A stretch of 64,000 nt of DNA, taken from Rubricoccus marinus (GTDB lineage Bacteria > Bacteroidota > Rhodothermia > Rhodothermales > Rubricoccaceae). How positions within the stretch are numbered: position 1 is the stretch's first letter; each line of letters begins with the position of its first letter. Shown in pieces: positions 5,748-25,882 of the stretch. Below the pieces are notes generated by a model. It did no database searches. It had not been told where the DNA came from and saw only the letters and a list, made by a program, of their open reading frames with translations. The stretch spans positions 2,952,619 to 3,016,618 of the forward strand of contig NZ_MQWB01000001.1 in the NCBI RefSeq assembly GCF_002257665.1. The letters are read 5' to 3'. Position numbers and translations under genes: made by a program.

Positions 5748-5749
5748 CG

Positions 5750-9638: not shown

Positions 9639-10910
9639 ATGGCCTCGCCGCCCGGCGCCCCTGTGACCGAAACCCACCTCGCGCCCCGTTCCGACGAGCC
9701 GTTTGAAGTCGCCGTGCGCCGCCTTCGGATGCTGCTCGATGTCAACGTCGCGCTCAGCGCTGTCGCTGACCTCGATCACCTGCTCGGCACCATCATTCGC
9801 ACCACGACAAGCGTGCTCCAGTGCGAGGCCGCCTCGATCTTGCTGCACGAGCCGTACGAGAACGTCCTCCGCTTCGCCGCCGCCACGGGCGACGAGAAGG
9901 GCGCGCTAAAGGAGGTGCGCGTGCCGCTCTACGGGAGCCTGGCCGGCACCATCTACACCGAGAACCGCGCCCTGCTCGCCGTTGACCTCAAGCGCGACGA
10001 GCGCCACTTCAGCAACGCCGCCGAGGCCACAGGCTTTCAGCCGCGCGTGCTTCTCGGCGTCCCCATGCGCATCGACGGCGTGCCCATCGGCGTGCTCGAA
10101 GCGCTCAATCCCCGCGACGCGTTCGACGCCGTTGACGCGGAGATGCTGCTCATCGTCTCGGCCCAGGCCGCCGTCGCCATCCGCAACGCTCGGCAGCGCG
10201 ACGCACTCGACGCCGCGCGCACCCGCCTCGCCGCGCTCGACCGTGTCAAAAGCGACTTCATGGCCGTGGCCTCCCACGAACTCCGGACGCCTCTGGCGGC
10301 GCTCCGTGGGTTCGGCGAGATCCTGCACGAAGAGGTGCGCCCGGACCTCGTGGGCCACGCTGAGGAAGTGGTCCGCTCCTCGAAGCGGATGGAGGCCATC
10401 GTAGAGACGCTGGAGGAGATGAGCCAGTTGGAGCACCCCCAGCGCGCCGAGCCGCACGGCAGGAATGGAAACACCGTCACCCTTTCCGACGTGCTCGCGC
10501 GGGCCGACTCCGGGATGGACCGGCCCATCGATTTCTCGCTACCCCCCGCCCCCCTGCTGATCCGCGGTGAGCGCGACCGGCTGCGGCTGGCGTTCTCGCA
10601 CCTGCTCGCCAACGCCGTGCAGTTCACGCCGCCAGAGGCCGCCATCCGCGTGGAAGCCGAGGTGCACGGCGACGAGGTCCACGTGAGCATCCGCGACGAG
10701 GGCCGCGGCCTCGATCCGCAGGACTTGGAGCGGATCTTCGAGGCCTTCGTGCAGACCGACGACCCGCTCACGCGCCGAACCGAGGGTCTCGGCATGGGCC
10801 TGACCGTCGCGCGGAGCATCGTGCTCCGTCACCGTGGGCGGCTGTGGGCCACGAGCCCCGGGCTCGGCCAGGGCAGCACGTTCCACGTGCGCTTGCCCCT
10901 GGCGGCGTAG
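9639..10910 (+). CDS. GAF-domain sensor histidine kinase, cytoplasmic
   Basis: 423 residues from ATG 9639 (MASPPGAPV); an in-frame ATG at 9594 would add 15 residues and cannot be excluded. A GAF domain occupies about 30-190 (FQPRVLLGVPMRIDGVPIGV). A HisKA domain follows with the phosphoacceptor in FMAVASHELRTPLAAL, then an ATPase domain with LAFSHLLANAVQFT, RDEGRGLDPQDLERIFEAF and GLGMGLTVARSIV. No membrane segment is visible, so it likely senses a cytoplasmic ligand or redox state. No response regulator is adjacent. The DUF3095 gene upstream is co-oriented. Confidence 0.9.
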   Translation: MASPPGAPVTETHLAPRSDEPFEVAVRRLRMLLDVNVALSAVADLDHLLGTIIRTTTSVLQCEAASILLHEPYENVLRFAAATGDEKGALKEVRVPLYGSLAGTIYTENRALLAVDLKRDERHFSNAAEATGFQPRVLLGVPMRIDGVPIGVLEALNPRDAFDAVDAEMLLIVSAQAAVAIRNARQRDALDAARTRLAALDRVKSDFMAVASHELRTPLAALRGFGEILHEEVRPDLVGHAEEVVRSSKRMEAIVETLEEMSQLEHPQRAEPHGRNGNTVTLSDVLARADSGMDRPIDFSLPPAPLLIRGERDRLRLAFSHLLANAVQFTPPEAAIRVEAEVHGDEVHVSIRDEGRGLDPQDLERIFEAFVQTDDPLTRRTEGLGMGLTVARSIVLRHRGRLWATSPGLGQGSTFHVRLPLAA

Positions 10911-11058
10911 GGCCTCTGGCGGTACAGAACGCGGAGAGCTTGGCGCCAGAAGCCTCTGGCGCCAGCGCGCGGAGGGGTGCGGAGCGCCTGCGAGAAGAGC
11001 GGTCGGAGCCTGGGGTGCTTCTGGAGCGTAGGCCTAGCCCCTCTCCCCCTCCCCTCCG

Positions 11059-11328
11059 ATGAAGATCTCAGACGACACCACGTGGAAAGCCCTCACGTTC
11101 GTCGCGGCCACAGGCGCCGCGCTCACGACGCACTGGGCGCTCAAAAACGGCTGGCAAGCCATCACCGGCAAGAAGCCACCAACGAACCCCGCCGCCCGTG
11201 AGACGGCTTGGACGGAAGCCCTGATCTGGACGGCTGCGAGCAGCCTCGCAGGTGGCCTCGCGAAGCTCGTGGCCAAGCGCCACGCCGGCGCGTTTAAGGA
11301 AGGAGACGTTCCTGTGCTTGGCGCCTAA
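11059..11328 (+). CDS. DUF4235 family small membrane protein
   Basis: 89 residues with two hydrophobic segments (about 10-25 and 54-68) and the family's pattern of a GW-A-TGKKPP turn followed by AWTEALIWTAASSLAGGLAK and a basic tail. DUF4235 proteins are small integral membrane proteins of unknown role. The gene sits alone between a kinase and mltF with a CT-rich leader and no visible Shine-Dalgarno. Confidence 0.8.
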   Translation: MKISDDTTWKALTFVAATGAALTTHWALKNGWQAITGKKPPTNPAARETAWTEALIWTAASSLAGGLAKLVAKRHAGAFKEGDVPVLGA

Positions 11329-11403
11329 CGCTGTGAATGCGGGATTCACGGACCCCGCCAGAAGCCCGTCCCGTATCTCTGTCCCTTCTATTCTGCCTTT
11401 TCC

Positions 11404-12984
11404 ATGCTTCGAGGTCCCTTCCGAATTGTCGCCATCCTTCTCGGCCTCGGCCTCGCAGGCGCCGCCGTCGTTACGGCGTTTTCGCCGGACTCAGCCTCCG
11501 TTGTCCGCCTTCCCGATCCGATCGAACGGGACCTCGACCAGATCATCGAGCGGGACACAATCATCGCGCTGACGAGCTACAACCCGACGAGTTACTTCGT
11601 CTACCGAGGCGAGGCCTTCGGCTACGAGTACGAGTTGCTAAAGGACTTCGCCGAGGAGGCCGACGTGGTGGTCACGATGCGCGTCGTGCCGCGGGACAGC
11701 CTGCTGTATTTCCTCAATGCGGGATTGGGTGATGTCGTGGCGGCGCGGCTTTTCCCGAGCGAGAGCGACACCTCGCAGTTCGCGTACACGAGGCCGCTGT
11801 ATGAGACGCCCCCGACGGTTGTGCAGTCCACGGGGCCGCTCAACGAGGACACCTCCGCCTCCGATACCCTCCGTGCGCCAGAGGCCTCTAGCCTCCAAGC
11901 GAGCAACGCCGCGCGTGAGTTGGGAGACGACGCGGCGCGCGGCCCTATCCGCATCCGAGGCGCTCGCATCCAGAGGCCTGGCGATCTCGCGGGAGAGCAG
12001 GTGTTCCTGCCCGAGGACCACGCGTACATCGAGCGGCTCGTCGAGATCGAGAACCGCGTCACAGGCGACATCGAGGTCGTGGAGGTGGACACCTTGAGTG
12101 AGGCGCTGATCCGGCAGGTCGCCAGAGGCGGAATCGACCTCACCATCGCGCCGCAGAACGTGGCGCAACTGGAGGCGAGCTACTTCGAGAACTTGGAGGT
12201 GAACCCGGTCATCGGGCCCGCGACGGGCGTGGTCTGGGCCGCGCGGCGCAACTCGCCTGACCTCGCGGCGGCGCTCAACCGCTGGATCCTCGAGAACCGG
12301 GACTCCAACCGTTGGGCGAGCCTCTACCGCAAGTACTACGTGGACCGCGACGGCTTCCGCGAGCGCGTCGAAAGCGAGTACCTCACGAGCGAGACATCGG
12401 TCCTCTCCCAGTTCGACGACGTGTTCAAGGCCAACGCGGCCGAGATCGGATGGGACTGGCGGCTTCTGGCGAGCCAAGCGTTTCAAGAGAGCCGCTTTAA
12501 GCCCCGTGCGCGGTCGTGGGCCGGCGCGATGGGCCTCTTGCAGATTATGCCGCTGACGGCCCAAGACCTCGGCATCTCCGACCCGTACGACATCGAGGAA
12601 AACGTCGACGGCGCCGTCCGCTACCTCCAGTGGCTGGACGACACCTACTGGGCTGAGATGGTGCCTGACTCCCTCGAGCGCCAGAAGTTTATCCTCGCGA
12701 GCTACAACGCCGGAGCCGGCCACGTTATGGACGCGCAGCGCCTGACGGAGAAGTACGGCGGCGACAAAACGAAGTGGGCCGATGTCGCCTACTGGATGCT
12801 CAAGAAGTCCGATCCCAAGTACTACAACGATCCCGTCGTGCGCCACGGCTACGCCAGAGGCCTGGAGCCCGTCCACTACGTCGCCATCATCTTGGAGCGG
12901 TTCGACCACTACCGCCAGTTCGTGACCGACGACGTCAGCGTGGCCTCCGCCGATGGCTCGGCAGCCTCTGGCGCCAAAGGCTGA
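11404..12984 (+). CDS. mltF: MltF-like membrane-bound lytic murein transglycosylase
   Basis: 526 residues. An N-terminal hydrophobic anchor (about 9-28) is followed by a periplasmic solute-binding-protein-3-like domain (about 50-320; ITSYNPTSYFVYRGEAFGYE, then DLTIAPQNVA). A C-terminal SLT lysozyme-like domain has catalytic Glu362 in QAFQESRFKP, then GAMGLLQIMPLTA and ILASYNAGAGHV. It cleaves peptidoglycan glycan strands, forming 1,6-anhydro ends, and the binding domain is known in MltF to act as a regulatory module. The extreme C-terminus (ASADGSAASGAKG) is encoded by the iterated 10-mer followed by a one-base-degenerate copy. Confidence 0.9.
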   Translation: MLRGPFRIVAILLGLGLAGAAVVTAFSPDSASVVRLPDPIERDLDQIIERDTIIALTSYNPTSYFVYRGEAFGYEYELLKDFAEEADVVVTMRVVPRDSLLYFLNAGLGDVVAARLFPSESDTSQFAYTRPLYETPPTVVQSTGPLNEDTSASDTLRAPEASSLQASNAARELGDDAARGPIRIRGARIQRPGDLAGEQVFLPEDHAYIERLVEIENRVTGDIEVVEVDTLSEALIRQVARGGIDLTIAPQNVAQLEASYFENLEVNPVIGPATGVVWAARRNSPDLAAALNRWILENRDSNRWASLYRKYYVDRDGFRERVESEYLTSETSVLSQFDDVFKANAAEIGWDWRLLASQAFQESRFKPRARSWAGAMGLLQIMPLTAQDLGISDPYDIEENVDGAVRYLQWLDDTYWAEMVPDSLERQKFILASYNAGAGHVMDAQRLTEKYGGDKTKWADVAYWMLKKSDPKYYNDPVVRHGYARGLEPVHYVAIILERFDHYRQFVTDDVSVASADGSAASGAKG

Positions 12985-13066
12985 GCGGCGCATACGGGGC
13001 ACGCCAAGGTGGCCTGATTACCCCGCCTGGCTGCTCTACCTTCTCCTATCTCCCGACACGTTGCCG

Positions 13067-13279
13067 ATGCCCGTTTCTACCCCTGACGTTGAGATCGACC
13101 CCGACGCCCTGAAGCGGGCCGTGACGGAGGCCCTGCACGAGAACCGGGACTGGCTGCGCGATTTGGTGCAAGAGGCCCTGGAGACGTGCGCGATGGACGA
13201 AGCGCAGCGCGAGGCGGACGTGCGCTCGGCCGCCACACACCGCCCCCTCGTCCTCGGCGGCGTCCGCGGCGACGCCTGA
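13067..13279 (+). CDS. Small acidic antitoxin-like protein
   Basis: 70 residues, ATG at 13067. The central stretch DALKRAVTEALHENRDWLRD then LVQEALE resembles short helical proteins often annotated as antitoxins or toxin-antitoxin partners in cyanobacteria and Bacteroidota. No RelE, PIN or other toxin gene lies next to it. Assigned by pattern only; it could be an orphan gene with another role. Confidence 0.5.
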   Translation: MPVSTPDVEIDPDALKRAVTEALHENRDWLRDLVQEALETCAMDEAQREADVRSAATHRPLVLGGVRGDA

Positions 13280-13293
13280 GCGGGCGGCTTCTA

Positions 13294-13313
13294 CCGCCAG
13301 AGGCCTCTGGCGG
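13294..13313. repeat. 20-bp palindrome around the 18-bp core
   Basis: CCGCCAGAGGCCTCTGGCGG, 15 bp after the stop of the small acidic protein and before the solute-binding lipoprotein gene. Confidence 0.8.
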
Positions 13314-13363
13314 GATCACCACACGAGACGCCGGGTAGGGACGCCGAACCGTCCCGCTGCCTT

Positions 13364-14392
13364 GTGACCGCCTCTCGACTCGCGCCTCTGGCGCTCGCCC
13401 TCCTCCTTCTCTCCGGGTGCGCGAGCGACGACCGTACGCCGCTCGTGGTGTATTCGCCACATGGCAAGGAGATGCTGAGCGCGTACGAGGAGGCGTTCGA
13501 GGCCGCGAACCCCGGCGTGGACGTGCAGCCCATCGACATGGGCGCGCAGGACGCCTACGACCGCATCCGAACGGAGCGGCAGAACCCGCAGGCGAGCGTG
13601 TGGTGGGGCGCACCTCAGGTCACGTTCGCTCGCGCCGCCGAGGAAGGGTTACTCGCGCCCTTTACACCCTCCTGGGCAGGCGCGCTGGACGCCTCCTCGC
13701 GCGATCCAGAAGGCCGCTGGTACGGAACCTTTCTGACGCCCGAGGGCTTTCTGGTCAACACGGAGACGCTGGACGCCGCCGAGATGCCTCGGGACTGGGA
13801 CGACCTGCTCGACCCGCGCTGGAAAGACCGCGTCATCATCCGCACGCCTCTGGCGAGTGGGACCATGCGCGCCATCTGGAGCGCGATCATCGTGCGCCAG
13901 CCGACCGAAGAAGCCGGCTTCGAGTGGCTCGCACGGCTGGACGCGAACACCAAGTCCTACGCCGCCGACCCGACCCAGATGTACCTCGGGCTCGCCAGAG
14001 GCACCGCCGATGTGACGCTCTGGAACATGCCGGACGCGTACCTCCAGGCCGAGACCAATGGCTACCCGTTCGCCTTTATCGTGCCCTCTAGCGGCGCGCC
14101 CGTCCTCGTGGACGGCATCGCGATCCCCGAAGGCGCGCCGCAGCCCGAGCTCGCGAAGCAGTTCATCGAGTTCGTGACCTCGCAAGAGGCGCTGCTGGAT
14201 CAGTCGCGCCGCTTCTACCGCATCCCGGCGCGGACCGACATTCCACAGGACAGCCTCCCGGCATGGATCACGTCCGCAGAGATCCGCCCGATGGAGCTCG
14301 ACTGGTCGGCGCTCGCGGACAAGGAGGACGCCTGGATGCAGCGCTGGGACGAGTCCGTCAAGGGACGCGGCGCCGCCTACCTCGCGGAGTAA
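13364..14392 (+). CDS. ABC-type solute-binding lipoprotein (iron/thiamine class)
   Basis: 342 residues from a GTG start, with lipobox LLSGC (Cys19). The fold is that of periplasmic binding proteins of the ferric-iron/polyamine class: LVVYSPHGKEMLSAYEEAFE, WWGAPQVTFARAAEEGLLAP, TPEGFLVNTETL, DWDDLLDPRWKDRV and GTADVTLWNMPDAY. It would deliver substrate, possibly Fe(III), to an ABC permease, but no permease or ATPase gene is adjacent. Ligand-binding tyrosines typical of FbpA-type proteins cannot be confidently assigned, so the substrate is open. Confidence 0.85.
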   Translation: MTASRLAPLALALLLLSGCASDDRTPLVVYSPHGKEMLSAYEEAFEAANPGVDVQPIDMGAQDAYDRIRTERQNPQASVWWGAPQVTFARAAEEGLLAPFTPSWAGALDASSRDPEGRWYGTFLTPEGFLVNTETLDAAEMPRDWDDLLDPRWKDRVIIRTPLASGTMRAIWSAIIVRQPTEEAGFEWLARLDANTKSYAADPTQMYLGLARGTADVTLWNMPDAYLQAETNGYPFAFIVPSSGAPVLVDGIAIPEGAPQPELAKQFIEFVTSQEALLDQSRRFYRIPARTDIPQDSLPAWITSAEIRPMELDWSALADKEDAWMQRWDESVKGRGAAYLAE

Positions 14393-14412
14393 GTCTCTGG
14401 CGAGGGCACGAG

Positions 14413-14430
14413 GCCTCTGGCGCCAGAGGC
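14413..14430. repeat. 18-bp palindrome between convergent genes
   Basis: GCCTCTGGCGCCAGAGGC in the 68-bp gap between the solute-binding protein and der stop codons, with a degenerate copy (TCTCTGGCG) at the first stop codon. Confidence 0.85.
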
Positions 14431-14460
14431 CCCTGGCGTCGGCCCGCGAGGGCAACCGGA

Positions 14461-15774
14461 CTACTGCGGCTTGGATTTCGCCTTGAACGAAAGCGTCAGC
14501 GGCACGCCCTCGAATCCGAAGGCGTCACGGAGGCGGTTCTCCAGGAAACGCTTGTAGCTCTCCTTGATGCCCTGCGGGTAGTTGCAGAAAAAGGCGAAAA
14601 CCGGCGGGCTCTCGCGGACCTGGGTCGCAAAGTTGATCTTGACGTAGTTGCCGCGCCAGGATGGTGGGTACTGCGCCCGTACGGCGGCCTCGACCACCTC
14701 GTTGAGCTTGGAGGTCGGGATGCGCTTGTTGCGCTCGTCGTAGACCTGCAGCGCGAGGTCGAGAACCTTATCGGCGCGCTGACCTGTGAGGGCGCTGGCG
14801 TAGAGGAACGGCACGAAGTCGATGGTGCCGCGCTCCTTGGCGGCACGCTCGAAGTCTCGGGCGGTGTTGGTCTCCTTCTCAACCAGGTCCCACTTGTTGA
14901 CGACGACGACCAAGCCCTTCTTCATGTCCGCAGCCTCGCGGAGCACCTTCGCGTCCTGCGCCTCGAAGCCGCGCTCGGCGTCGATGAGGAGCACGGCGAC
15001 GTCGCACGTCTGGATGGCGCGCTCGGTCCGCAGCATGGAGTAGAACTCGACGTTCTCCTTCACGCGCGCCTTCTTGCGAAGGCCGGCGGTGTCCACCAGT
15101 ACGATCTCCCGGCCGTTGACCTCCATTCGAGCATCGACCGAATCGCGCGTCGTCCCCGCGATTTCGGTCACGATGCTCCTCTGGCGCCCGAGCAGCAGGT
15201 TCGCGAGCGAGGACTTGCCCACGTTGGGCCGGCCGATAAACGCGATGCGCGGGGCGTCATCGTCTTCGGCCACGTCGGGCTGCTCGGGGAGGGCTTCGAT
15301 GACCGCATCGAGGAAGTCGCCGGTCCCGGAGCCGTTGATGGCGCTGAGCGCGAACACGTCGCCCAGGCCGAGGCTCCACAGCTCGGCGGCTTCCATGCGG
15401 CGGAGGTCGTTGTCTGCTTTGTTGCCAACGACGAGAACAGGCTGCTCGGCGCGGCGCAGCACCTGCGCCACCTCTTGGTCAAGGTCCGTGATGCCTGTCT
15501 CCACGTCCACGACGAACAGGATGACATCGGCCTCTTCCAGCGTGAGCATGACCTGCTCGCGGATGGCGGCCTCAAAGCGCTCGGCGGAGCGCGGGACCAA
15601 GCCGCCGGTATCGACGAGGTCGAACACACGCCCTCCCCACTCCACGTCTCCGTAGATGCGGTCGCGCGTCACGCCGGCTTCGTCGTGGACGATGGCCTGG
15701 CGGGCTTCGGTGAGGCGGTTGAAGAGCGTGGACTTGCCCACATTCGGGCGGCCGACGATGGCGACGAGAGGCAT
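14461..15774 (-). CDS. der: Ribosome-associated GTPase Der (EngA)
   Basis: 437 residues, the usual length. Two tandem GTPase domains: first GRPNVGKSTLFN, DTGG and NKAD (about 8-120); second GRPNVGKSSLANLL, DTAGLR and NKWD (about 182-300). A C-terminal KH-like domain follows. Der is needed for 50S subunit maturation. The whole gene holds only one copy of the iterated 10-mer (near 15179), in the second P-loop region (LLGRQRS). Confidence 0.97.
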   Translation of the reverse strand: MPLVAIVGRPNVGKSTLFNRLTEARQAIVHDEAGVTRDRIYGDVEWGGRVFDLVDTGGLVPRSAERFEAAIREQVMLTLEEADVILFVVDVETGITDLDQEVAQVLRRAEQPVLVVGNKADNDLRRMEAAELWSLGLGDVFALSAINGSGTGDFLDAVIEALPEQPDVAEDDDAPRIAFIGRPNVGKSSLANLLLGRQRSIVTEIAGTTRDSVDARMEVNGREIVLVDTAGLRKKARVKENVEFYSMLRTERAIQTCDVAVLLIDAERGFEAQDAKVLREAADMKKGLVVVVNKWDLVEKETNTARDFERAAKERGTIDFVPFLYASALTGQRADKVLDLALQVYDERNKRIPTSKLNEVVEAAVRAQYPPSWRGNYVKINFATQVRESPPVFAFFCNYPQGIKESYKRFLENRLRDAFGFEGVPLTLSFKAKSKPQ

Positions 15775-16179
15775 AGCGGGAAGTCAGATCAGCGAAAGCA
15801 GAATGCAGAAGGCGCACCCGGGGGTCCGCGCCTCTGGCGACGCAGCGAAGTCCGCCAGAGGCCGCCGGCGAGTGCCACGGCCTACCAACGTTCCCGCCTC
15901 TGGCGCGCACCACTTCCCCACACACAGGCCGTAGACGTGTGTGGGCCGCGGCGACGGCGCAAGAGGCCCAAACTAGGCGTCGCGCGGCCGCTGGCGCCTC
16001 TGCGGACCCTTCGCGTGTGCGCCGACGCCAGAGGCAGATGCAAGCTCAGCAATCGTGCCGGCGTGCGGGGCGTGTAGTCCAGAGTGCGGACGCGGGTGTA
16101 AGACCCGTTCTCGAAGTTGGTGAACCGGCACCACCGCACAGCCTCAGGCGTTACACCACCGATCCGACTCTACCCCGAC
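15775..16179. other. Intergenic region upstream of der and msrAB
   Basis: 405 bp between divergent genes. It contains four copies of the iterated 10-mer, two of them an inverted pair with a 15-base loop at about 15830-15863, and a separate 9-bp-stem hairpin. Promoters for both genes must lie here, but none could be assigned. No tRNA fold was found. Confidence 0.5.
15917..15945. repeat. Hairpin unrelated to the 10-mer
   Basis: CCCACACAC pairs with GTGTGTGGG (9 bp) across an 11-base loop. No T-tract follows. Role unknown. Confidence 0.5.
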
Positions 16180-17337
16180 ATGCGACTTCCCTTTCTCGGC
16201 CTCCTTGCCCTCGCGTTTGCGCTCGCTGCGTGCGGCGGCGCCGAAAGCGCCTCCGAATTGGAGGCCGTTCTCGGCCAGCCCGTCCACAGCCCTGTTGAGC
16301 CCGCATCGCTCGACATCGCTCCTGCGGACGCCGACACGCTCATCCTGGCCGCCGGGTGTTTCTGGTGCGCCGAGACCGCCTTTGAAGGCGTCCCGGGCGT
16401 TGCAAAGGTGACCAGCGGCTTCGCAGGCGGCACGGTCGCCAATCCGACCTACGACCAGGTCACGCGTGGTGGCACCGGCCACTACGAGGTGATCGAGGTC
16501 GTGTACGACCCCGAACAGGTCTCTACGGAGGACCTCCTGGACATTTTCTGGCGCAACGTGGACCCGCTCGACGGCGACGGCCAGTTCTGCGACCGCGGCC
16601 CCTCCTACCGCTCGGCCATCTTCGCCACGAGCGTCCAGCGGCCTCTGGCGGAGCAGACCAAGCGCGAGGTGGCAGCCAGGTTCGACCAGCCCATCGAGAC
16701 CAAGATTCTGCCCTCTGCGACGTTTTACCCCGCCGAGGACTACCACCAGGACTTCTGGCTCAAGGACCCGGAGCGCTACTACTCCTACCGCCTCGGCTGC
16801 CGCCGCGATGCGCGCCTGGAACAGCTCTGGGGCGCAGAGGACACCGCCGAGCTTTCGCCAGAGGCCCGCGAGACGCGTGAGACCTGGGCCTCCCGGTTTG
16901 AGCGGCCCAGCGACGCTGCGCTCAAAGCCAGACTGTCTGGCATGCAGTACCGCGTGACGCAGGAGGACGGGACCGAGCCGCCGTTCGTAAACGAGTACGA
17001 CGACAACAAGGAGCCTGGCATCTACGTGGACATTGTCTCCGGCGAGCCGCTTTTCTCCTCGCTCGACAAGTTCGACAGCGGGACCGGGTGGCCCTCGTTC
17101 ACGCAGCCGCTGGAGCCCGCCCTCGTCGTCACCAAACCCGACCCGGGCGTCTTCGGCGACCGGACGGAGGTTCGCTCCGCTGTCGGGGATTCGCACCTCG
17201 GTCACGTGTTCGATGACGGCCCCGCCCCCACCGGCCTGCGCTACTGCCTCAACTCCGCCGCGCTCCGCTTTATCCCGGCCGACCGGCTCGAAGCCGAGGG
17301 CTACGGGCAGTACGCCAGCCTGTTCGCCTCCAGCTAG
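16180..17337 (+). CDS. msrAB: Lipoprotein MsrA-MsrB fusion, methionine sulfoxide reductase
   Basis: 385 residues from ATG 16180, which opens a lipoprotein signal (lipobox LAAC, Cys18). The MsrA domain starts at about 52 with catalytic Cys60 in AAGCFWCAE and [14 protein letters not shown]. The MsrB domain covers about 245-380 ([39 protein letters not shown], catalytic Cys in [11 protein letters not shown]). It reduces both S- and R-methionine sulfoxide. With its lipoprotein signal it should repair envelope proteins, like Neisseria PilB but without the thioredoxin-like domain. The CxxC zinc-type cysteines of many MsrBs are absent. Confidence 0.93.
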
Positions 17338-17361
17338 CCTCTGGCGCCCGCTCCCGCCCCC

Positions 17362-17379
17362 CGCCAGAGGCCTCTGGCG
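17362..17379. repeat. 18-bp palindrome between msrAB and msrB
   Basis: CGCCAGAGGCCTCTGGCG in a 60-bp gap; a further single 10-mer begins with the G of the msrAB stop codon. Confidence 0.85.
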
Positions 17380-17397
17380 CCCCACCTCCGACTTCTG

Positions 17398-17886
17398 ATG
17401 ACACGCGTCTCCCTTCTCCTCTTCGCCCTCCTTCTTGCCGCGCCTCTGGCGCAAGCGCAGAGCAAGGCCGAACTCCGCCAGAGGCTCACGCCGATGCAGT
17501 ACCGCGTCACGCAAGAGGACGCGACCGAGCCCGCGTTCCGCAACGCGTACTGGGACAACGAGCGCGCCGGCATCTACGTGGACATCGTCTCCGGCGAGCC
17601 TCTCTTCTCGTCCAAGGACAAATACAAAAGCGGGACCGGCTGGCCTTCCTTTACGCGCCCGCTCGTTCCCGGCAACATCCGCACGGTCACGGACCGCTCT
17701 GGCGGCATGACGCGCGTCGAGGTCCGCTCCCGCGGGGCCGACTCCCACCTCGGGCACGTCTTCAACGACGGCCCCGCGCCGACGGGCAAGCGTTACTGCA
17801 TGAACAGCGCAGCCATGCGGTTTATCCCCGCCGCACGCCTCCGCGCCGAGGGGTACGGCCGCTTCGCCGCCTCGTTCGGACGGTAG
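17398..17886 (+). CDS. msrB: Exported methionine-R-sulfoxide reductase B
   Basis: 162 residues with signal peptide ending in APLAQAQ. The MsrB domain nearly repeats that of the preceding gene: [20 protein letters not shown], then [48 protein letters not shown] and catalytic Cys in [11 protein letters not shown]. Adjacent position and strong similarity indicate tandem duplication of the MsrB module of msrAB. It should act in the periplasm. It is 60 bp downstream of msrAB on the same strand. Confidence 0.93.
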
Positions 17887-17904
17887 CGCCAGAGGCCTCT
17901 GGCG
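17887..17904. repeat. 18-bp palindrome filling the whole gap between convergent stop codons
   Basis: CGCCAGAGGCCTCTGGCG occupies exactly the 18 bases between the msrB TAG (17884-17886) and the reverse-gene TGA (17905-17907). It could serve as a bidirectional 3' hairpin. Confidence 0.9.
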
Positions 17905-18381
17905 TCAGCCCACACGTTGATAGCGGTCCTCGCCCACGACCGTCGCGAAGCCTCTGGCGACGAGCCCGGCGTAGAGAGCGCGAGCCAGGCGCACGTCATA
18001 TCCGCGCTCGAACCCCTCGACGTAGATCCGCACGCGGCGGCCGTCTGCAAGGTCGAAGCGCCAACTCTCGGCGCGGCCCCGGTAATGGCGGTAGCTCGCG
18101 ATCTCGTCCCAGGAGAACGCGTGCTCTCCTTTCCGATTCGCGACGAGGACTCCGCCAGAGGCCACCTCGACCCAGCGCAATCCCCGTCGCCAGGAGATTC
18201 CCAGTAGCGCAGCGAGGAGGAGGGCCAGAACGCCGCAGCTAAAGACCATCACGAACAGCGGCGGCCACGAGTCTTCCTCTAGCGCGATAACGGCAAAGAG
18301 GATCAGGCAACTCACACCGAAGACGAGTGCCCACGAGCGCGCAATGCGAGCAAAGGAGGATTCGAATCGGAGAGACGACAT
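17905..18381 (-). CDS. Two-helix membrane protein of unknown function
   Basis: 158 residues, ATG at 18381 (MSSLRFESSFARIARSW). Two hydrophobic segments at about 17-36 and 43-62 form a hairpin; the C-terminal half has a WVEVASGGVLVANRKGEHAF pattern and SWDEIASYRHY, like a membrane-linked PH-type domain (bPH/YcxB-like). Family assignment is tentative. It converges on msrB with only a palindrome between. Confidence 0.55.
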   Translation of the reverse strand: MSSLRFESSFARIARSWALVFGVSCLILFAVIALEEDSWPPLFVMVFSCGVLALLLAALLGISWRRGLRWVEVASGGVLVANRKGEHAFSWDEIASYRHYRGRAESWRFDLADGRRVRIYVEGFERGYDVRLARALYAGLVARGFATVVGEDRYQRVG

Positions 18382-18512
18382 GGGCGTACCGGCGGACGCC
18401 CTGGATATCGGCCGAGGGCCCAGAACCTTCAAATCGGCCGTATACGACGACGCCTCTGGCGCGGCAGGTTCTACCAGCGCCAGAGGCGGTCTCGGTCTGT
18501 CGTCTATCTGCG

Positions 18513-20195
18513 CTACCGTGTGAGCTGGCGGTACTTGATCCGCTTCGGCACGTCGGCGTCCGTTCCGAGGCGCTCGCGGCGGTCAGCGGCGTACTCGGAG
18601 TAGTTGCCGGGGTACCAGCGCGGGTGCACCTCACCGTCGGCGTCAGGCTCGAAGGACAGAATGTGCGTCGCGACGCGGTCGAGGAACCAGCGGTCGTGGG
18701 AGATCACCACGACGCAGCCGGCGAACTCCAAGAGGGCCTCTTCGAGGGCGCGAAGTGTGTTCACGTCCAGGTCGTTGGAGGGCTCGTCGAGCAGGAGCAC
18801 GTTGGCGCCTTCCTTGAGCGTCGTCGCGAGGTGGAGGCGTCCGCGCTCACCGCCGGAGAGCTCGGTCACCTTTTTCTGCTGGTCCTGCCCGCCGAAGTTG
18901 AACCGGCCCACGTAGGCGCGAGCGTTGACCTCCTGCTTGCCGACCTGAATAAAGTCGGAGCCGCCGGAGATGGCTTCGAAGACGGTGTGCTCGGGGTCGA
19001 GCGGGCGGTTTTGGTCCACGTAGCCGATCTGCACCGTGCTGCCCACGTTGAAGGTGCCTGCATCCGGCTCCTCCTGGCCCATGATCATCTTGAACAGCGT
19101 CGTCTTGCCCACGCCGTTCGGGCCGATCACGCCCACGATGCCGCCGGGCGGGAGGCTGAACGTGAGGTCTTCGTAGAGCACGCGGTCGCCGTAGCTCTTC
19201 GTCACGCCAGAGGCCTCGATCACCACGTCGCCGAGGCGTGGGCCGGGCGCGATGGGGATCTCGCGGTCCTCGTCGGCCTTGTTGTACTCCTGGCTGACCA
19301 TGCGCTCGTAGTTCGCGATACGCGCCTTGCTCTTCTTGGAGCGCCCCTTGGGGTTCTGGCGCACCCACTCCAGTTCGTCCTTGAGCGCCTTCTGGCGCTT
19401 GGACTCCTGCTTCTCCTCCAGCGCCAGGCGGGCCGTTTTCTGCTCCAGCCACGACGTGTAGTTGCCCTGGAACGGGATGCCCTTGCCGCGGTCGAGTTCG
19501 AGGATCCAGCCCGCGACGTTGTCTAGGAAGTAGCGGTCGTGGGTGACCGCGATAACGGTGCCCTCGTACTGCTCCAGGTGGTTCTCCAGCCACGCGACGC
19601 TTTCGGCATCGAGGTGGTTGGTGGGCTCATCGAGCAGGAGCACGTCGGGCTTCTGCAGGAGCAGTCGCACGAGCGCCACGCGGCGCTTCTCGCCGCCCGA
19701 GAGCACGCCGATCTTGGCCTCTGGCGGGGGGCAGCGGAGCGCGCTCATCGCCATGTCCAGCTTGGAGTCGATGTCCCAAGCGTCCAGGGCGTCGATGCGC
19801 TCCTGGAGCTTGCCCTGCTCGGCCATGATGGCGTCGTAGTCGGCGTCCGGCTCGGCGTACTTGAGGCCGACGGCCTCGTAGTCCTTGAGAAGCTGCACGG
19901 CCTCGCCTGCACCCTCTTCCACGATCTCGCGGACCGTCTTCTCGGGGTCCAGCTCGGGCTCCTGATGGAGGTAGCCGAACGTGATGCCCTTCTCGGACTG
20001 GATGGTCCCGTCGTACTTCGGGTCCTCCCCTGCGATGATCTTCAGCAGCGACGACTTGCCGGCGCCGTTGAGGCCCAGCACGCCGATCTTGGCGCCGTGG
20101 TAGAAGCTGAGGTAGATGTCCTTGAGGACGAACTGGCCGGGGCGGTAGCTCTTGCTCACGCCGACCATGGAGAAGATGATCTTCTGGTCGCTCAC
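18513..20195 (-). CDS. ettA: Energy-dependent translational throttle protein EttA
   Basis: 560 residues. Two ABC-F ATPase domains with Walker A LGLNGAGKSSLLK (about 40) and IGPNGVGKTTLFK, signature motifs LSGGEKRRVAL and LSGGERGRLHL, and DEPTNHLD / DEPSNDLD Walker B regions. The arm and inter-domain linker (WIEYTxxxYxxWLEQK-type, here NYTSWLEQKTARLALEEKQE) fit EttA. It binds the ribosomal E site and gates translation according to ATP/ADP. Only two 10-mer copies lie in 1.7 kb of this conserved gene. Confidence 0.95.
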   Translation of the reverse strand: MSDQKIIFSMVGVSKSYRPGQFVLKDIYLSFYHGAKIGVLGLNGAGKSSLLKIIAGEDPKYDGTIQSEKGITFGYLHQEPELDPEKTVREIVEEGAGEAVQLLKDYEAVGLKYAEPDADYDAIMAEQGKLQERIDALDAWDIDSKLDMAMSALRCPPPEAKIGVLSGGEKRRVALVRLLLQKPDVLLLDEPTNHLDAESVAWLENHLEQYEGTVIAVTHDRYFLDNVAGWILELDRGKGIPFQGNYTSWLEQKTARLALEEKQESKRQKALKDELEWVRQNPKGRSKKSKARIANYERMVSQEYNKADEDREIPIAPGPRLGDVVIEASGVTKSYGDRVLYEDLTFSLPPGGIVGVIGPNGVGKTTLFKMIMGQEEPDAGTFNVGSTVQIGYVDQNRPLDPEHTVFEAISGGSDFIQVGKQEVNARAYVGRFNFGGQDQQKKVTELSGGERGRLHLATTLKEGANVLLLDEPSNDLDVNTLRALEEALLEFAGCVVVISHDRWFLDRVATHILSFEPDADGEVHPRWYPGNYSEYAADRRERLGTDADVPKRIKYRQLTR

Positions 20196-20231
20196 AGTGT
20201 CGGGGTCGTCGGTGTTCAGGTGTAGGCTCGG

Positions 20232-20249
20232 GCCTCTGGCGCCAGAGGC
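20232..20249. repeat. 18-bp palindrome upstream of ettA
   Basis: GCCTCTGGCGCCAGAGGC 36 bp upstream of the ettA start on the minus strand. Confidence 0.8.
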
Positions 20250-20371
20250 GAAACCAAGCTAGGCCGCGCGCCTCGGCGCGCAGGCCAATCCTCTACGAAA
20301 CCCGACGGGCCTCTGGCGGTGTGCCCCGGCATCAAGTGCGGACGACATCGCTAGAGCGAGATCGCTCTCGG

Positions 20372-20617
20372 CTACGCCAGAGGCTCGGTGCTCTTCGAGA
20401 GGCGTCGGGCGGCGTAGCCCGCGCCAGCCAGCGCGAGCAGGCCGAGGCCGCCATCGAGCGGCACGTTGGGCGGCGGCGGCGGTGGCGGCGGTGGCCCCGG
20501 ACCGAAGTTGTCCTCCGAAGCCGCCGGGGCCTCTGGCGCGGCGGCCCAGTCCGGGACGTTCTGCGCGAAGGCCGCGGAGGAGAAAACGAGAGCCGAGAGA
20601 GCGACGAGGCGAAGCAT
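20372..20617 (-). CDS. Small exported protein with PID-CTERM-like sorting tail
   Basis: 81 residues from ATG 20617, signal peptide MLRLVALSALVFSSAAFAQ. A short polar stretch precedes a run of nine prolines, then VPLDGGLGLLALAGAGYAAR and a basic tail. The P(I/L)DGG plus hydrophobic helix plus basic end matches the PID-CTERM protein-sorting class seen in Bacteroidota. Such tails are thought to be processed or anchored at the envelope; the processing enzyme is not in the window. Confidence 0.75.
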   Translation of the reverse strand: MLRLVALSALVFSSAAFAQNVPDWAAAPEAPAASEDNFGPGPPPPPPPPPNVPLDGGLGLLALAGAGYAARRLSKSTEPLA

Positions 20618-20716
20618 GGAGAAGCCGGTAGCAGTCAAAACAGAGGATCGCTCGCGCGACCGCACAAGGGGGTGTCCCGAAGACCCATTCGCACCCGGCG
20701 CCTAACAGACCCCGCG

Positions 20717-20734
20717 GCCTCTGGCGCCAGAGGC
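20717..20734. repeat. 18-bp palindrome after the subtilisin gene
   Basis: GCCTCTGGCGCCAGAGGC lies about 60 bp downstream of the minus-strand protease stop codon at 20797. Confidence 0.8.
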
Positions 20735-20796
20735 CTCACGCAAACGGGCGGGACCGCCGAAGCAGCCCCGCCCGATGGTGTCAAGCGTTCGGCGTG

Positions 20797-23568
20797 CTAC
20801 CGCACGACCGTCATCCGGCGCATCTCCGTCTCGCCGCCAGAGGTGAGGCGGTAGACGTAGGTGCCGGCAGCAAGGCCGCTGGCGTCGAGCGTCACCTCGT
20901 AGCGGCCGGCCTCCACCGTCTCGTCCACGAGAGAGCGCACCTCGCGGCCTAGCAGGTCATAGACCGCTAGGCGGACGGGGCCGCTGACGCTCGTCGTGTA
21001 GGCGATCCGCGTTGTCGCCCCGAAGGGGTTGGGCGCGTTGGCCTCCAGGGCCATCTCGCCAGAGACCTCTCCACCCTTGAGGGCGGGTAGCGTCGTCCCA
21101 GCCGGCTCACCCGTAAAGGCGTCCGGGTTGGTGGCGTCGTACATGTCCAGGAAGCGAACCGCGGCAACGGCGTAGCCCGCGCGGGTTACGGTCTCCGAGG
21201 GGTTGAAGCGAGCGCGGATCGTCGGCTGCAAATCGAACGGACCCTGGTGCACCGAGAACTGAGCGCTCATCAGCCCCGCGTCGAGCGCGAGTTGCACGTA
21301 GCCGCGAAGAGCCGCGGGGATCGCCCCACTGTCATCCAGCGCGATGCGCTGGCCGTCGAAGGCGGCGTAGACCGTGCCGTCGTAGTCCATCGCGGGCTCG
21401 TGCAGGCCGAGCGCGGCGACAAAGGAGTAGGCGAGGTCCGCACGGGAGACGAGGTTGTTCTCGTGGAAGCCCTCGGCGCGGATTACGCCGGGCGCGAACC
21501 CGTCGCGGTCCTTGAGCGCAGCGCCCCGGAGGGTCGCGGCGTTGGCCTGGATAAACGGAAGAGGCGCCACCTGCGACGGCTGACGGATGCCCGCACCGAG
21601 CGTGAGGTACATCGCCAGTTCGCCCTGCCGCATCACGCCGTTCGGGTTGTACCGCCCGTTGCGGAATCCGTCGACGAGTTGCTCGATCACCGCCGCCTCG
21701 ATAAAGCCTCTGGCGGGGTGGTTCGCGATGTCGTTGAGACCGACGAAGCCGTCGGTCGCGACGAACTCGACGCGGGCGTTGATCGTGCCGGGGAGCGCGA
21801 GACCGTTCGTGACACCGAGCGGGTCCACGCCGACGCCCGAGAGCGAACCGATGCCGCTGGCGCTGATCGTCCACGTGCCTTCCTCGCCCGGCGCGCTCAC
21901 GCCCGCGATCTCACCGAGCACAGGGAGCGTGATGCCGGAGCCGTAGCGCTTGCCGCTCGGGGACGTGAGGACGAGCGCGATGGTGTTCTCCGACACGACG
22001 GCGCGAGCCTTGACGAGGGACACGTCGGCAGCCACTTCGAACGAGACCGACTCCGGCTCGCCGATGGGGCTGAAGAACAGGCTCGCATCAAAGCCTCCGG
22101 CGTCGCGGAAGCGGCCGCTGGCGTTGAACGCGCGGGTCGCCGTCGCGAACGACGAGCGGTCCCCCACGTCCACGCCGCGGATCTCCGCGATGGCGGCATG
22201 CGCGTTGGCGTAGCCCGTGCCGACCTCCCACGGCTCGCGGCCAGGCATGTTGGTCGCCGTCCGCTGCAGGATGGCCTTGACCTCCATCGGGTCCAAGCTC
22301 GGATCGGCTTCCAGCATCAGCGCCACGATGCCAGCCACGTGCGGCGTCGCCATCGACGTGCCGGAGATCATCGTGTAGAACGGCAGGTAGGCCGGCGCGA
22401 TCGCGTCCAGGTCGGCGTCGCCTCCGTTGGCGCCCGCGTTGGTCGCCGAGCGCGTGGAGATGATGTCGACGCCAGGGGCCACGATGGTCACGTCGTTCTT
22501 GTACTCCCAGGTCTGGCCGTCGTAGGTGGTGAAGGAGTAGCCCTCGCCCTTTTTACCGCGCGAGGAGAAGTCCGCGAGCGCACCAAGCTTGTCCCCGGCA
22601 CCGACGGAGATGACCCATGGGGCCTGCGCGTAGATGTTGTGCGTGTCCTCGCCCGGACCGCTGTTGGAGGCCGCGAACAGCGTGACGATCCCACGCTGGT
22701 ACGCCCGGTAGGAGGCCTGCACGATGGGGCTCTCGGGCGCGAACTCGCCATCGGATCCCCACGAGTTGGTGATGACGCGGATCGGGTTGTCGAAGCGGAA
22801 CTGGTTGGTGATCGCGTAATCGAAGCCGCCGAGCCCATCCAGGATGAGGATCACGCCGCCGGAGCCGTACCCGATCAGGTCTGCGCCGGGCGCAACGCCT
22901 TCGTACAGGCCGCCCGAGCGAACGCCGAGACCGCCGACCGTGCCGGCGCAGTGCGTGCCGTGGCCGGAGTTGGTGTCGGTGTTGGGCGTGCCTTCGAGGT
23001 ACGTGATGGGCGCGAGGTCCGTGATCGCATTCAGGTTGGTGAGCGCCTGCACGTTTTCGACGACCTTCGATCCATAGGGAAGGTCCGCGTGCGTGGCGTC
23101 GATACCGGAATCGTTGACGACCACCGTAACGCCTTTACCGGAGTACGGAAGGCCCTGGCTCGTGCGGAGTTGGGAGTCCGTGCGGAGCCGGTCAACGCCG
23201 GTGATCTGCTTGGAGCCGTCGTTGTGGTAGTTCAGCTCTTCGTTGAGCCAGACGGAGGCGACGCCCGGAATCCTCGCGATAGAGGCAACCTGCGCCGGCG
23301 TTGCCAAAACGCCCGCGATGGGCAGGCTCTGGAACGTGGTGCCGGTTGTGACGCCGAGAGCGGTGAGCCCGCGGAGTTGCGACGTGCTGAGGGGGCCTTC
23401 CTGATCGAACGTGACGACGACCTCCAGGCGGTCCAGGCTGGACGTGATCGATAGCACGTCTTGGAGCGAACGCCCGATGACGGCCGTCTGAGCGCTGGCG
23501 GAGGAGTAGAGGAGCACCACCAGCGCAACGAGAAGGGAACGGAGGAGGGGTGTAGCGCGAGGAGTCAT
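20797..23568 (-). CDS. S8 subtilisin-like protease with T9SS type A sorting domain
   Basis: 923 residues from ATG 23568, with signal peptide to about 27 (SSASAQ). An inhibitor-like prodomain covers about 30-115. The peptidase domain has catalytic Asp153 (NDSGID), His203 (SGHGTHCAG) and Ser405 (SGTSMATPHVAG). Later regions include a proprotein-convertase-like segment (SFEVAADVSLVKARAVV), a stretch resembling S-layer-homology repeats (about 610-760) and a C-terminal T9SS domain: NPFGATTRIAYT, VYDLLGREVRSL, GLAAGTYVYRL. It should be secreted through the type IX system and held at the surface. Few 10-mer copies occur here. Confidence 0.93.
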   Translation of the reverse strand: MTPRATPLLRSLLVALVVLLYSSASAQTAVIGRSLQDVLSITSSLDRLEVVVTFDQEGPLSTSQLRGLTALGVTTGTTFQSLPIAGVLATPAQVASIARIPGVASVWLNEELNYHNDGSKQITGVDRLRTDSQLRTSQGLPYSGKGVTVVVNDSGIDATHADLPYGSKVVENVQALTNLNAITDLAPITYLEGTPNTDTNSGHGTHCAGTVGGLGVRSGGLYEGVAPGADLIGYGSGGVILILDGLGGFDYAITNQFRFDNPIRVITNSWGSDGEFAPESPIVQASYRAYQRGIVTLFAASNSGPGEDTHNIYAQAPWVISVGAGDKLGALADFSSRGKKGEGYSFTTYDGQTWEYKNDVTIVAPGVDIISTRSATNAGANGGDADLDAIAPAYLPFYTMISGTSMATPHVAGIVALMLEADPSLDPMEVKAILQRTATNMPGREPWEVGTGYANAHAAIAEIRGVDVGDRSSFATATRAFNASGRFRDAGGFDASLFFSPIGEPESVSFEVAADVSLVKARAVVSENTIALVLTSPSGKRYGSGITLPVLGEIAGVSAPGEEGTWTISASGIGSLSGVGVDPLGVTNGLALPGTINARVEFVATDGFVGLNDIANHPARGFIEAAVIEQLVDGFRNGRYNPNGVMRQGELAMYLTLGAGIRQPSQVAPLPFIQANAATLRGAALKDRDGFAPGVIRAEGFHENNLVSRADLAYSFVAALGLHEPAMDYDGTVYAAFDGQRIALDDSGAIPAALRGYVQLALDAGLMSAQFSVHQGPFDLQPTIRARFNPSETVTRAGYAVAAVRFLDMYDATNPDAFTGEPAGTTLPALKGGEVSGEMALEANAPNPFGATTRIAYTTSVSGPVRLAVYDLLGREVRSLVDETVEAGRYEVTLDASGLAAGTYVYRLTSGGETEMRRMTVVR

Positions 23569-23711
23569 GGGCGGTCGGAGGTGAGGGGTGTGCTCCAAAC
23601 CTCCCTGCCGTTCCGCTTCCCTTCCATCGGCTTGGCCCGAAGGACCTTGTAGGAAGATTCAGTTGAGGCGACTTCCGCGTTTGTCCTACACAACAATGCA
23701 CAACCGCCGCG

Positions 23712-23729
23712 GCCTCTGGCGCCAGAGGC
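23712..23729. repeat. 18-bp palindrome (22 bp with flanks)
   Basis: GCCTCTGGCGCCAGAGGC, extended by CG on both sides to 22 bp. It lies 10 bp beyond the stop codon of the minus-strand AhpD-like gene. Confidence 0.85.
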
Positions 23730-23738
23730 CGTCCCCAG

Positions 23739-24245
23739 CTACACCTCTACCTCCACGCGCGAGCACGCCGTGGCGAAGCCCAGCGCACGCTTAATCGTCG
23801 GGTACGCCTGTGCGGTTGCGACGGCGAGGGCGAGCTCGACCACACCGCGGTCGCCAAAACGCTCCCGGAGCCTCTGGCGCGGTTCGGTGGGGTCCTCGCC
23901 CCCGGCGGTCATCCGCGCGAAAGAGACCGCGTCGGCCTCTGGCACCGAAAGCGGCTCGCCGGCCAGGACCGCTCGGATCGCCTCGGGCGCGACGCCAGAG
24001 GCGCGCGCGGCGTTCACCTCCACTTGCACGCATGTGCCGCAGTCGGCCGCTTGCGTGGCCGCGATGCGAGCGGCGTGGTAGACCTCGGGCGGGAGCACTT
24101 TCCGGTGCGCCGTCGCGGGTTGCAAGAGCCCGAACTTGAGCAGGGCGGCGGGGTCGTGATCCGCCACGTAGCGGAGGTAGTCGACCGGGACGCCGAGGCT
24201 GGCTTCGGTGCGGCTGAGCGCGCGGCGGAGGAACGGGCGGAGCAT
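23739..24245 (-). CDS. Carboxymuconolactone decarboxylase/AhpD-like protein
   Basis: 168 residues, ATG at 24245 chosen as the first Met before family-like sequence. All-helical AhpD core with the redox pair in DCGTCVQVEVNAAR and upstream His-containing helix (EVYHAARIAATQAA). Members act as peroxidase partners or thiol-disulfide enzymes; CxxC retention argues for redox activity. It is divergent from the esterase gene. Confidence 0.8.
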   Translation of the reverse strand: MLRPFLRRALSRTEASLGVPVDYLRYVADHDPAALLKFGLLQPATAHRKVLPPEVYHAARIAATQAADCGTCVQVEVNAARASGVAPEAIRAVLAGEPLSVPEADAVSFARMTAGGEDPTEPRQRLRERFGDRGVVELALAVATAQAYPTIKRALGFATACSRVEVEV

Positions 24246-24348
24246 GGTGCCAGAAGCAGTTCGTGGCAGCGTACGGCCCTGCGCGCATTGTGTGACGCCC
24301 GAACCCGCACCGCCTCTGGCGGGTGGAACGCCAAACCACTCCACACGC

Positions 24349-25302
24349 ATGCGCCTCCTCGCGTTCCTCCTGCTCTTGCCCCTGGCGGGCTGCACCGCCG
24401 TCACGGGCATCGCCCTCGACTTCGTCTACGATCACCAGGACCTCCCGCCCGCAAACGTCCAAAACGACATCTCGTACGTCGAGGACTCGCTCGACCCCAA
24501 ACACCGGCTCAACCTGTTTATGCCGCTCGCGGACTCGGTCCGCCAGAGGCCGTGGCCGACGGTCGTCTTCGTGCATGGCGGCGGTTGGACCACCGGCGAC
24601 AAAGACCTCACGTTCGGCGGGGAAGACATCTACGGCAACATCGGGCGCTTTTTCGCCGCGCGCGGGATGGGCGCCGCAACGGTCAGCTATCGCCTGCAGC
24701 CAGGCGCGACGTGGCAGGAGCAGGTCTCGGACGTGGCGCGCGCCGTCGCCGAGGTCCGCCGCCGCGTGACCGCCTCTGGCGGCGATCCCAACGGCCTGGT
24801 CCTGATGGGCCACTCGGCGGGAGCCCACCTCATCGACCGCGTCGCACTGGACCGCTCGGCGCAAGAGGCCGCGGGCATCCCGCAAGGAGCCATCTGCGGC
24901 GCGATCTCGGTCAGCGGCGCCGCCCTCGACCTGCGCGACCGCGAGTCGTTCGAGATCGCGGACAACTACCCGTACTACCAGACGCGCTTCGCGCCGGCCG
25001 GGACGGCCAAGATGGAGACTGCGCCTCTGGCGCCGGAGCCGTGGCAGACCGAGGCGTCCGTCGTCCCGCTCCTCACGCCCGCTTCGCCGCCGTTCTTGGT
25101 GATCTACGCCGAGGGCGACTACCCGGCGCTGATCCGGCAGAACGAGCTGCTGATCGACGCGCTCGACGCCTCTGGCGTGCCGCACGAGGTCGCGATCGAG
25201 CCCGGCAACTCCCACGAGCGCATCATCGCGACGCTGAGCAAGGAGGGCAAGGCCGCGGGCCCAGCGATGCTCGGCTTCGTGCGCGGCCTGAGCTGCGAGT
25301 AG
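24349..25302 (+). CDS. Alpha/beta-hydrolase, carboxylesterase type, lipoprotein
   Basis: 317 residues from ATG 24349 with lipobox LAGC (Cys15). Oxyanion motif FVHGGGWTTGDKD, nucleophile elbow GHSAGAHL (Ser), late Asp in YAEGDYPAL and His near PGNSHERII give a complete triad. This is the acetyl-esterase/BD-FAE-like (feruloyl/short-chain esterase) branch. The lipoprotein signal places it in the envelope. The natural ester is unknown. Several 10-mer copies fall at variable loops. Confidence 0.85.
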   Translation: MRLLAFLLLLPLAGCTAVTGIALDFVYDHQDLPPANVQNDISYVEDSLDPKHRLNLFMPLADSVRQRPWPTVVFVHGGGWTTGDKDLTFGGEDIYGNIGRFFAARGMGAATVSYRLQPGATWQEQVSDVARAVAEVRRRVTASGGDPNGLVLMGHSAGAHLIDRVALDRSAQEAAGIPQGAICGAISVSGAALDLRDRESFEIADNYPYYQTRFAPAGTAKMETAPLAPEPWQTEASVVPLLTPASPPFLVIYAEGDYPALIRQNELLIDALDASGVPHEVAIEPGNSHERIIATLSKEGKAAGPAMLGFVRGLSCE

Positions 25303-25308
25303 CCCTCT

Positions 25309-25326
25309 GCCTCTGGCGCCAGAGGC
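25309..25326. repeat. 18-bp palindrome after the esterase gene
   Basis: GCCTCTGGCGCCAGAGGC six bases after the TAG stop codon. Confidence 0.85.
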
Positions 25327-25357
25327 GCTATCCTCGCGCCTCCGCTTCTCCCCGCCG

Positions 25358-25861
25358 ATGACCGCCCGACCGCGCCCCGAGGAATACGCCCCGTTCTACG
25401 CCGGCTACATCGACGCCGTCCCGGACGTGGATCTGTTCGAGACGCTGGAGACGCAACCCGTCGAGCTCGACCAGCTCCTCGCCGAGGCCGATCCGGACTA
25501 CGCCTACGAACCGGGCAAGTGGGCCGTCCTCCAGGTCATCCAGCACATGGCGGATACCGAGCGCGTGTTCGCCTTCCGCGCGCTCTGGTGGGCGCGGGGC
25601 GAGACATCGCCTCTGGCGGGATTCGACCAAGACGACTGGATGCCGCACGCGCCCGAGCAATCGCTCGGCGAGGCGTTCACCGAGTTCTTGGCTATCCGCG
25701 CGTCGACGCTCGCGCTATTTCAGCCGTTGGCGCCAGAGGCCTGGGGCCGCGGCGGCGAGGCCAGCGGTCACCACATGACCGTTCGTGCGGCGGCGTGGGT
25801 CCTGGCCGGTCACGTGGAGCACCACACGCGCATCCTGCGCGAGCGGTACGGGTTGGGCTAG
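25358..25861 (+). CDS. DinB-family protein
   Basis: 167 residues, four-helix-bundle DinB_2 fold. Putative metal-binding histidines are in VIQHMADTERVF (about 65) and LAGHVEHHTRIL (about 155), as in the family; W-rich segment RALWWARGET matches too. DinB proteins are often thiol-dependent transferases or hydrolases, but substrate is not predictable. CT-rich leader and no Shine-Dalgarno. Confidence 0.85.
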   Translation: MTARPRPEEYAPFYAGYIDAVPDVDLFETLETQPVELDQLLAEADPDYAYEPGKWAVLQVIQHMADTERVFAFRALWWARGETSPLAGFDQDDWMPHAPEQSLGEAFTEFLAIRASTLALFQPLAPEAWGRGGEASGHHMTVRAAAWVLAGHVEHHTRILRERYGLG

Positions 25862-25879: not shown

Positions 25880-25882
25880 GCG

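Follow-up and report, generated by a model that had tools for sequence, protein, structure and literature searches.

According to a 2025 paper, uptake directed by a dedicated DNA word is known from two families only, Neisseriaceae and Pasteurellaceae (PMC12616744). In Neisseriaceae, the uptake sequence (DUS) is an asymmetric word of about 10 nt, present in thousands of copies on both strands, found as inverted pairs at terminators and gene ends, and represented by related words, the DUS dialects, in related species (PMC3630211). The densest uptake sequence of this family in a 2013 survey, kingDUS, counts 5,918 copies in 2.4 Mb (PMC3630211), and primary DUS make up 1-2.5% of a genome (PMC7371117). 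The USS of Pasteurellaceae is also an abundant asymmetric word; it arises by point substitution and avoids constrained coding sequence (PMC1939737). Another extremely frequent oligonucleotide, cyanobacterial HIP1 (GCGATCGC), reaches up to 2,700 copies per Mb and, like the alternative HIPs, is replaced by different words in some relatives; these repeats are palindromes whose occurrence follows that of methyltransferases (PMC4390886).

The DNA analysed here, a 64-kb stretch referred to as the window, comes from a lineage unrelated to the Neisseriaceae (Rhodothermales) and carries a word different from DUS and USS, CGCCAGAGG. Its 245 occurrences in the window compare with about 4 expected from trinucleotide composition. 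Genome-wide, 15,555 copies are present in 4.43 Mb (7,808 and 7,747 on the two strands), covering about 3.2% of the genome, against 188 copies of a control made of the same letters written backwards. This density exceeds that of kingDUS, the genome share of primary DUS and the HIP1 maximum. All of the twenty 20-kb chromosome stretches sampled contain the word, at 2.5-4.5 copies per kb and with near-equal strand counts. CGCCAGAGG is asymmetric and mostly followed by a C (the 10-mer CGCCAGAGGC is present 14,176 times in the genome); its flanks show no conservation past the tenth base and, unlike those of the Pasteurellaceae USS, no AT-rich segments. Forms with one mismatch are clearly in excess only at position 4 (all three alternatives), position 7 (C and G) and position 8 (A), and lie near or under chance at most other positions. 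The pattern fits a putative recogniser reading CGC-AG--GC; such position-specific tolerance would be as for a protein contact pattern. One 4-kb stretch of the main contig (L013:4001-8000, about 1.804-1.808 Mb) has 50% GC, compared to 69% for the chromosome, holds only 2 copies of the word and is likely a recent import.

Copies of CGCCAGAGG recur in two palindromic pairings, CGCCAGAGGCCTCTGGCG (type A, an 18-mer with 517 sites in the genome) and CCTCTGGCGCCAGAGG (type B). It was these palindromes that the first-pass annotation of the window had described, and its description is accurate in detail. The number given for the window, about 30, is exactly 30, comprising 13 palindromes of type A and 17 of type B (Table 1). 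The perfect palindrome noted in the 18 bases that separate msrB from a reverse gene is exactly CGCCAGAGGCCTCTGGCG, that is, two head-to-head copies of CGCCAGAGG(C); it occupies the whole gap between two convergent stops, with the TAG of msrB (17398-17886, + strand, SelR domain) on the left and the stop of the reverse ORF 17905-18432, which reads TCA on the + strand, on the right. This ORF has a mildly gene-like codon score; it matched no Pfam family and, in tblastn searches, nothing in the relatives' fetched loci. Zero-base gaps occur exactly as claimed at 8303/8304, 25861/25862, 28664/28665 and 30681/30682, with one more, beyond that list, at 46203/46204, and the stop overlap reported at 53009 corresponds to a 24-nt palindrome, TGAGCCTCTGGCGCCAGAGGCTCA, that takes in the stop codon. 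No Rfam match was obtained anywhere in the 64-kb window. As an overall reading, the annotation stands in part: its analogy with DUS and USS pairs and its remark on missing T-tracts are upheld (see below), but it missed the primary feature, a single word lying mostly in genes. Indeed, tight palindromes comprise only about one fifth of the CGCCAGAGG copies, most copies being unpaired.

Table 1. Palindromes built from CGCCAGAGG in the 64-kb window, with their position relative to predicted genes.
Feature	Position
Type A, gap-filling between msrB stop and convergent ORF stop	17887..17904
Type B (CCTCTGGCGCCAGAGG), 0 nt past stop of 7677-8303 (+)	8304..8319
Type A, 0 nt past stop of 25358-25861 (+)	25862..25879
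Type A, 0 nt past stop of 27747-28664 (+)	28665..28682
Type B, 0 nt past stop of 30682-31497 (-)	30666..30681
Type B, 0 nt past stop of 46204-47709 (-)	46188..46203
24-nt TGAGCCTCTGGCGCCAGAGGCTCA, core type B 52992-53007, includes stop of ORF 53009-53440 (-)	52988..53011
Type B, 7 nt past stop of 24349-25302 (+)	25310..25325
Type B, 10 nt past stop of 23739-24245 (-)	23713..23728
Type A, 15 nt past stop of predicted ORF 13067-13279 (+)	13295..13312
Type B, 21 nt past stop of 13364-14392 (+)	14414..14429
Type B, 21 nt past stop of 44717-45853 (-)	44680..44695
Type B, 22 nt past stop of 54301-55545 (-)	54263..54278
Type A, 23 nt past stop of 41698-44610 (-)	41657..41674
Type A, 24 nt past stop of 16180-17337 (+)	17362..17379
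Type A, 25 nt past stop of 61883-62455 (-)	61840..61857
Type B, 34 nt past stop of 31633-33225 (-)	31583..31598
Type B, 63 nt past stop of 20797-23520 (-)	20718..20733
Type B, 78 nt past stop of 55797-56654 (-)	55703..55718
Type A, 92 nt past stop of 5750-7042 (-)	5640..5657
Type B, intergenic, nearest upstream stop 228 nt off	45960..45975
Type B, intergenic	7114..7129
Type B, intergenic	20233..20248
Type B, intergenic	51181..51196
Type A, intergenic per codon-usage gene calls	52899..52916
Type A, within predicted gene 4661-5623 (-)	5281..5298
Type A, within predicted gene 34308-35984 (+)	34426..34443
Type A, within predicted gene 36149-37513 (+)	36234..36251
Type B, within predicted gene 47706-51017 (-)	47878..47893
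Type A, within predicted gene 51557-52675 (-)	52576..52593
Dispersed CGCCAGAGG copies, 124 forward + 121 reverse, palindrome-paired ones included	1..64000

Two coding features of the region may be mentioned in passing. The sister species G177 has two msrB copies in tandem (locus L265:2277-3204), as opposed to one in the window; and positions 25883-27814 of the window encode a DNA polymerase III epsilon-type exonuclease fused to a UvrC-type GIY-YIG protein, an arrangement conserved in the family.

Placement relative to genes was assessed over 464 kb of chromosome, genes being positioned with a simple codon-usage ORF caller, not a curated annotation. In this sample the density of CGCCAGAGG is 7.8 per kb in intergenic regions versus 2.7 per kb in coding sequence, and 1,017 of the 1,741 copies fall within genes. 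There, the six possible readings of the word are used unevenly, and AGA and TCT codons stem from the word in 72% and 53% of cases, respectively. The crowding of palindromes behind stop codons, already suspected in the first-pass annotation, is pronounced: 60 are centred 0-20 nt past a stop where 2.7 are expected per bin. Exact abutment to the stop was found 20 times, compared to a mean of 4.4 and a maximum of 12 when positions were randomised 2,000 times within the same gaps; for distances of up to 3 nt the figures are 31 observed and 10.3 randomised. Since the abutment excess holds within the same gaps, the stop-codon effect is real beyond a general preference for gaps. Palindromes reach 9.6 per kb in the first 10 nt past stops and are absent from the 10 nt before starts; the share of gaps that hold one falls from 61% (convergent) through 39% (tandem) to 17% (divergent). 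Stops with a palindrome 0-3 nt downstream are TAG in 30 of 39 cases, versus 176 of 349 genes overall.

As RNA, both palindrome types fold into hairpins that have a stem of 6-7 bp and a loop of 4 nt (-10.6 and -7.9 kcal/mol). They resemble intrinsic (Rho-independent) terminators in offering a GC-rich hairpin right after the stop codon, common to both genes in convergent gaps, and differ from them in lacking a T-tract: of 103 palindromes at 3' ends, a single one has 4 or more T in the 8 nt behind it, and T-runs at gene ends with a palindrome are hardly above those of shuffled sequence. These figures show that the palindromes are not canonical intrinsic terminators, and bear out the earlier remarks that T-tracts are missing and that intrinsic termination would be unusual without them. 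A Rho-assisted or RNA-protecting role would agree with the placement of the palindromes.

The origin of the copies could be traced by aligning about 28 kb of the window with orthologous sequence of G177. Of 59 alignable CGCCAGAGG sites, 41 are gap-free; the G177 sequence is mostly 2-5 substitutions away from the word and is identical to it in only one of the 41. The density of CGCCAGAGG is 2.15 per kb in the alignable sequence versus 5.12 per kb elsewhere. Gap-free orthologues lying a few substitutions off, together with this contrast in density, indicate that the word was made largely by substitution in its own lineage, preferring unconstrained sequence, and not by insertion of a unit.

None of the 245 genomes of the class screened for CGCCAGAGG shows an excess comparable to that of the source genome. 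Two relatives carry another abundant word, CCGCCAGC: G177, of the same genus, at 2.15 per kb (control, 0.35) and G181 at 2.10 per kb (control, 0.61), with strand counts of 87/87 and 119/91, respectively. In both, CCGCCAGC is concentrated past stops and in gaps between convergent genes; its inverted pairs number 19 in G177 and 17 in G181, versus one each for the controls. It has CGCCAG in common with CGCCAGAGG and differs from it at position 7, a tolerated position, and the two words may be dialects of one system; words that differ among relatives are, by analogy, the pattern of the DUS dialects (PMC3630211). A hyperabundant 9-10-mer, asymmetric in itself and symmetric between strands, its enrichment past stops and in convergent gaps and the like word in two relatives thus lend good support to the annotation's comparison with inverted DUS or USS pairs at gene 3' ends. 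A weaker word, CCGAGGCGG, is found in G178 and G179 (0.90 and 0.54 per kb; controls about 0.05); its kinship to CGCCAGAGG is uncertain. No hyperabundant word was found in the stretches sampled from G174-G176, nor a comparable strand-symmetric one in samples of about 5-20 kb from other genera of the order, a sample size at which weak words would escape notice. The whole 18.4-kb contig L039 of G161 has CAACCTGC and AGGTTGGCA strongly over-represented but with a strand bias, which recalls a repetitive gene rather than a word of the uptake type. Viral contigs contain no match to the 18-mer and two to the 16-mer.

Besides the main contig, which has 3.84 CGCCAGAGG copies per kb, the assembly includes four contigs of 65-168 kb and similar GC; the portions read from these contain 0.15-0.92 copies per kb. 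Three of the four match T2SSE-type ATPases, a family including conjugation ATPases, and the contigs are presumably plasmids. Contig C11, plasmid-like and otherwise word-poor, carries 5-kb patches within its 100-120 kb interval (L159) in which the word rises to as much as 3.8 copies per kb, as though chromosomal DNA had been taken up. The chromosome encodes ComEC, DprA and a ComEA-like protein, as well as two ATPases, one PilB/GspE-like and one PilT-like, and a PilQ-like secretin; the search for typical pilins gave hits on C11 alone. Since relatives that lack a strong word have competence genes too, the presence of this machinery permits, but does not prove, a reading in terms of uptake. T2SSE ATPases were not found in the G177 assembly (fragmented, 91% complete) despite its abundant word.

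We propose that CGCCAGAGG(C) is probably a DNA-uptake-sequence-like watermark of the genome and that its inverted pairs probably serve additionally as hairpins at RNA 3' ends. A putative surface receptor of the type IV pilus/ComEA/ComEC route would prefer DNA with the word, and word-bearing alleles would enter the chromosome by uptake and recombination more frequently than wordless ones. Through this bias the word would accumulate, building up by point substitution where sequence is least constrained. When two copies meet head-to-head or tail-to-tail just past a stop, the transcript would fold into a GC hairpin of 6-7 bp, which might serve both genes where genes converge; inverted pairs would be favoured at the ends of genes, where they would probably act without a T-tract, either with the assistance of Rho or by protecting the RNA 3' end. 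The likeness to DUS and USS does not amount to a claim of proven membership: function, uptake and receptor are putative here, and the inverted copies, unlike those of Neisseriaceae, abut or overlap, and many begin directly behind the stop codon.

HIPs, too, are known for such abundance, for spacing that looks random and for giving way to different words in relatives (PMC4390886), and the word might be created and maintained inside the cell, by mismatch repair that depends on methylation or by some other conversion process unrelated to uptake. However, HIPs are palindromic and track DNA methyltransferases, whereas CGCCAGAGGC is asymmetric and the source genome yielded neither C5 (PF00145) nor PF01555 methyltransferases, the two families searched. 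Furthermore, repair operating throughout the cell should act on other replicons too, yet these are word-poor, unless they are recent arrivals. This origin thus appears unlikely. A site for an abundant intracellular protein (a factor of the nucleoid, of replication or of transcription), under selection at each of its chromosomal positions, would suit both the position-specific tolerance of CGCCAGAGG and its even coverage; but the sites have no strand polarity, they are unconserved even within the genus (1 of 41 identical), and about 3.5 of them per kb is too high a density, known site-specific chromosome organisers using, to our knowledge, far fewer. We regard such a site as quite improbable.

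It could also be that the element acts primarily in transcription termination or at RNA 3' ends, the copies in genes representing spill-over. The strong 3'-end and convergent-gap placement, the exact abutment to stops and the foldable hairpins speak for this interpretation, which conflicts with the absence of T-tracts, the small share of tight palindromes (about 20% of copies) and the location of 1,017 of 1,741 copies within genes. Such a function can be a secondary role of CGCCAGAGG, leaving single copies unexplained; as the primary one it is very hard to credit. Least plausible of all is that the word is a recombination site akin to Chi, or a repeat of the mobile or REP-like kind. Copy number is high, the inverted pairs recall REP/BIME elements, and the relatives' word read on the opposite strand, GCTGGCGG, resembles E. 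coli Chi; on the other hand, the flanks are unconserved, copies arose by substitution and not insertion, and no sampled stretch has strand polarity. Both variants were dropped as largely refuted by the substitution origin evident in gap-free orthologous alignments and by strand symmetry.

Returning to the uptake-like interpretation, we lean towards the view that CGCCAGAGG belongs to a third uptake-sequence system, of independent evolutionary origin and the first known from beyond Proteobacteria. It would have dialects at the family level and a density above any published figure we found, and its inverted pairs would have become part of gene ends, forming 3'-end hairpins that lack a T-tract and in many cases begin directly after the stop codon. 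The open-access literature searched for uptake sequences in connection with Bacteroidetes or Rhodothermales reports no such motif, and a search with the motif letters returned only unrelated papers among the matches listed; novelty is provisional, as the search covered mainly open-access papers. If the proposal is right, the word would be the species 'watermark' by which the cell recognises its own DNA during uptake, and these little-studied Rhodothermales bacteria are predicted to be transformable with motif-tagged DNA. A dense, dialect-forming counterpart in this order would provide an independent origin for testing how drives of this kind begin, how a receptor and its motif evolve in step, and what brings inverted pairs to gene ends.

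The minor pilin ComP exemplifies a specific uptake receptor. A candidate place to seek one here is a type IV pilus-like locus of the main contig (L167:5215-15006, about 690-700 kb), which contains the PilT-like ATPase and PilQ-like secretin genes. Proteins of 741 and 349 amino acids encoded in this locus look, by position, like PilM/N and PilO; upstream lie genes for small membrane-anchored proteins that resemble pilins, although the search did not detect them as such.
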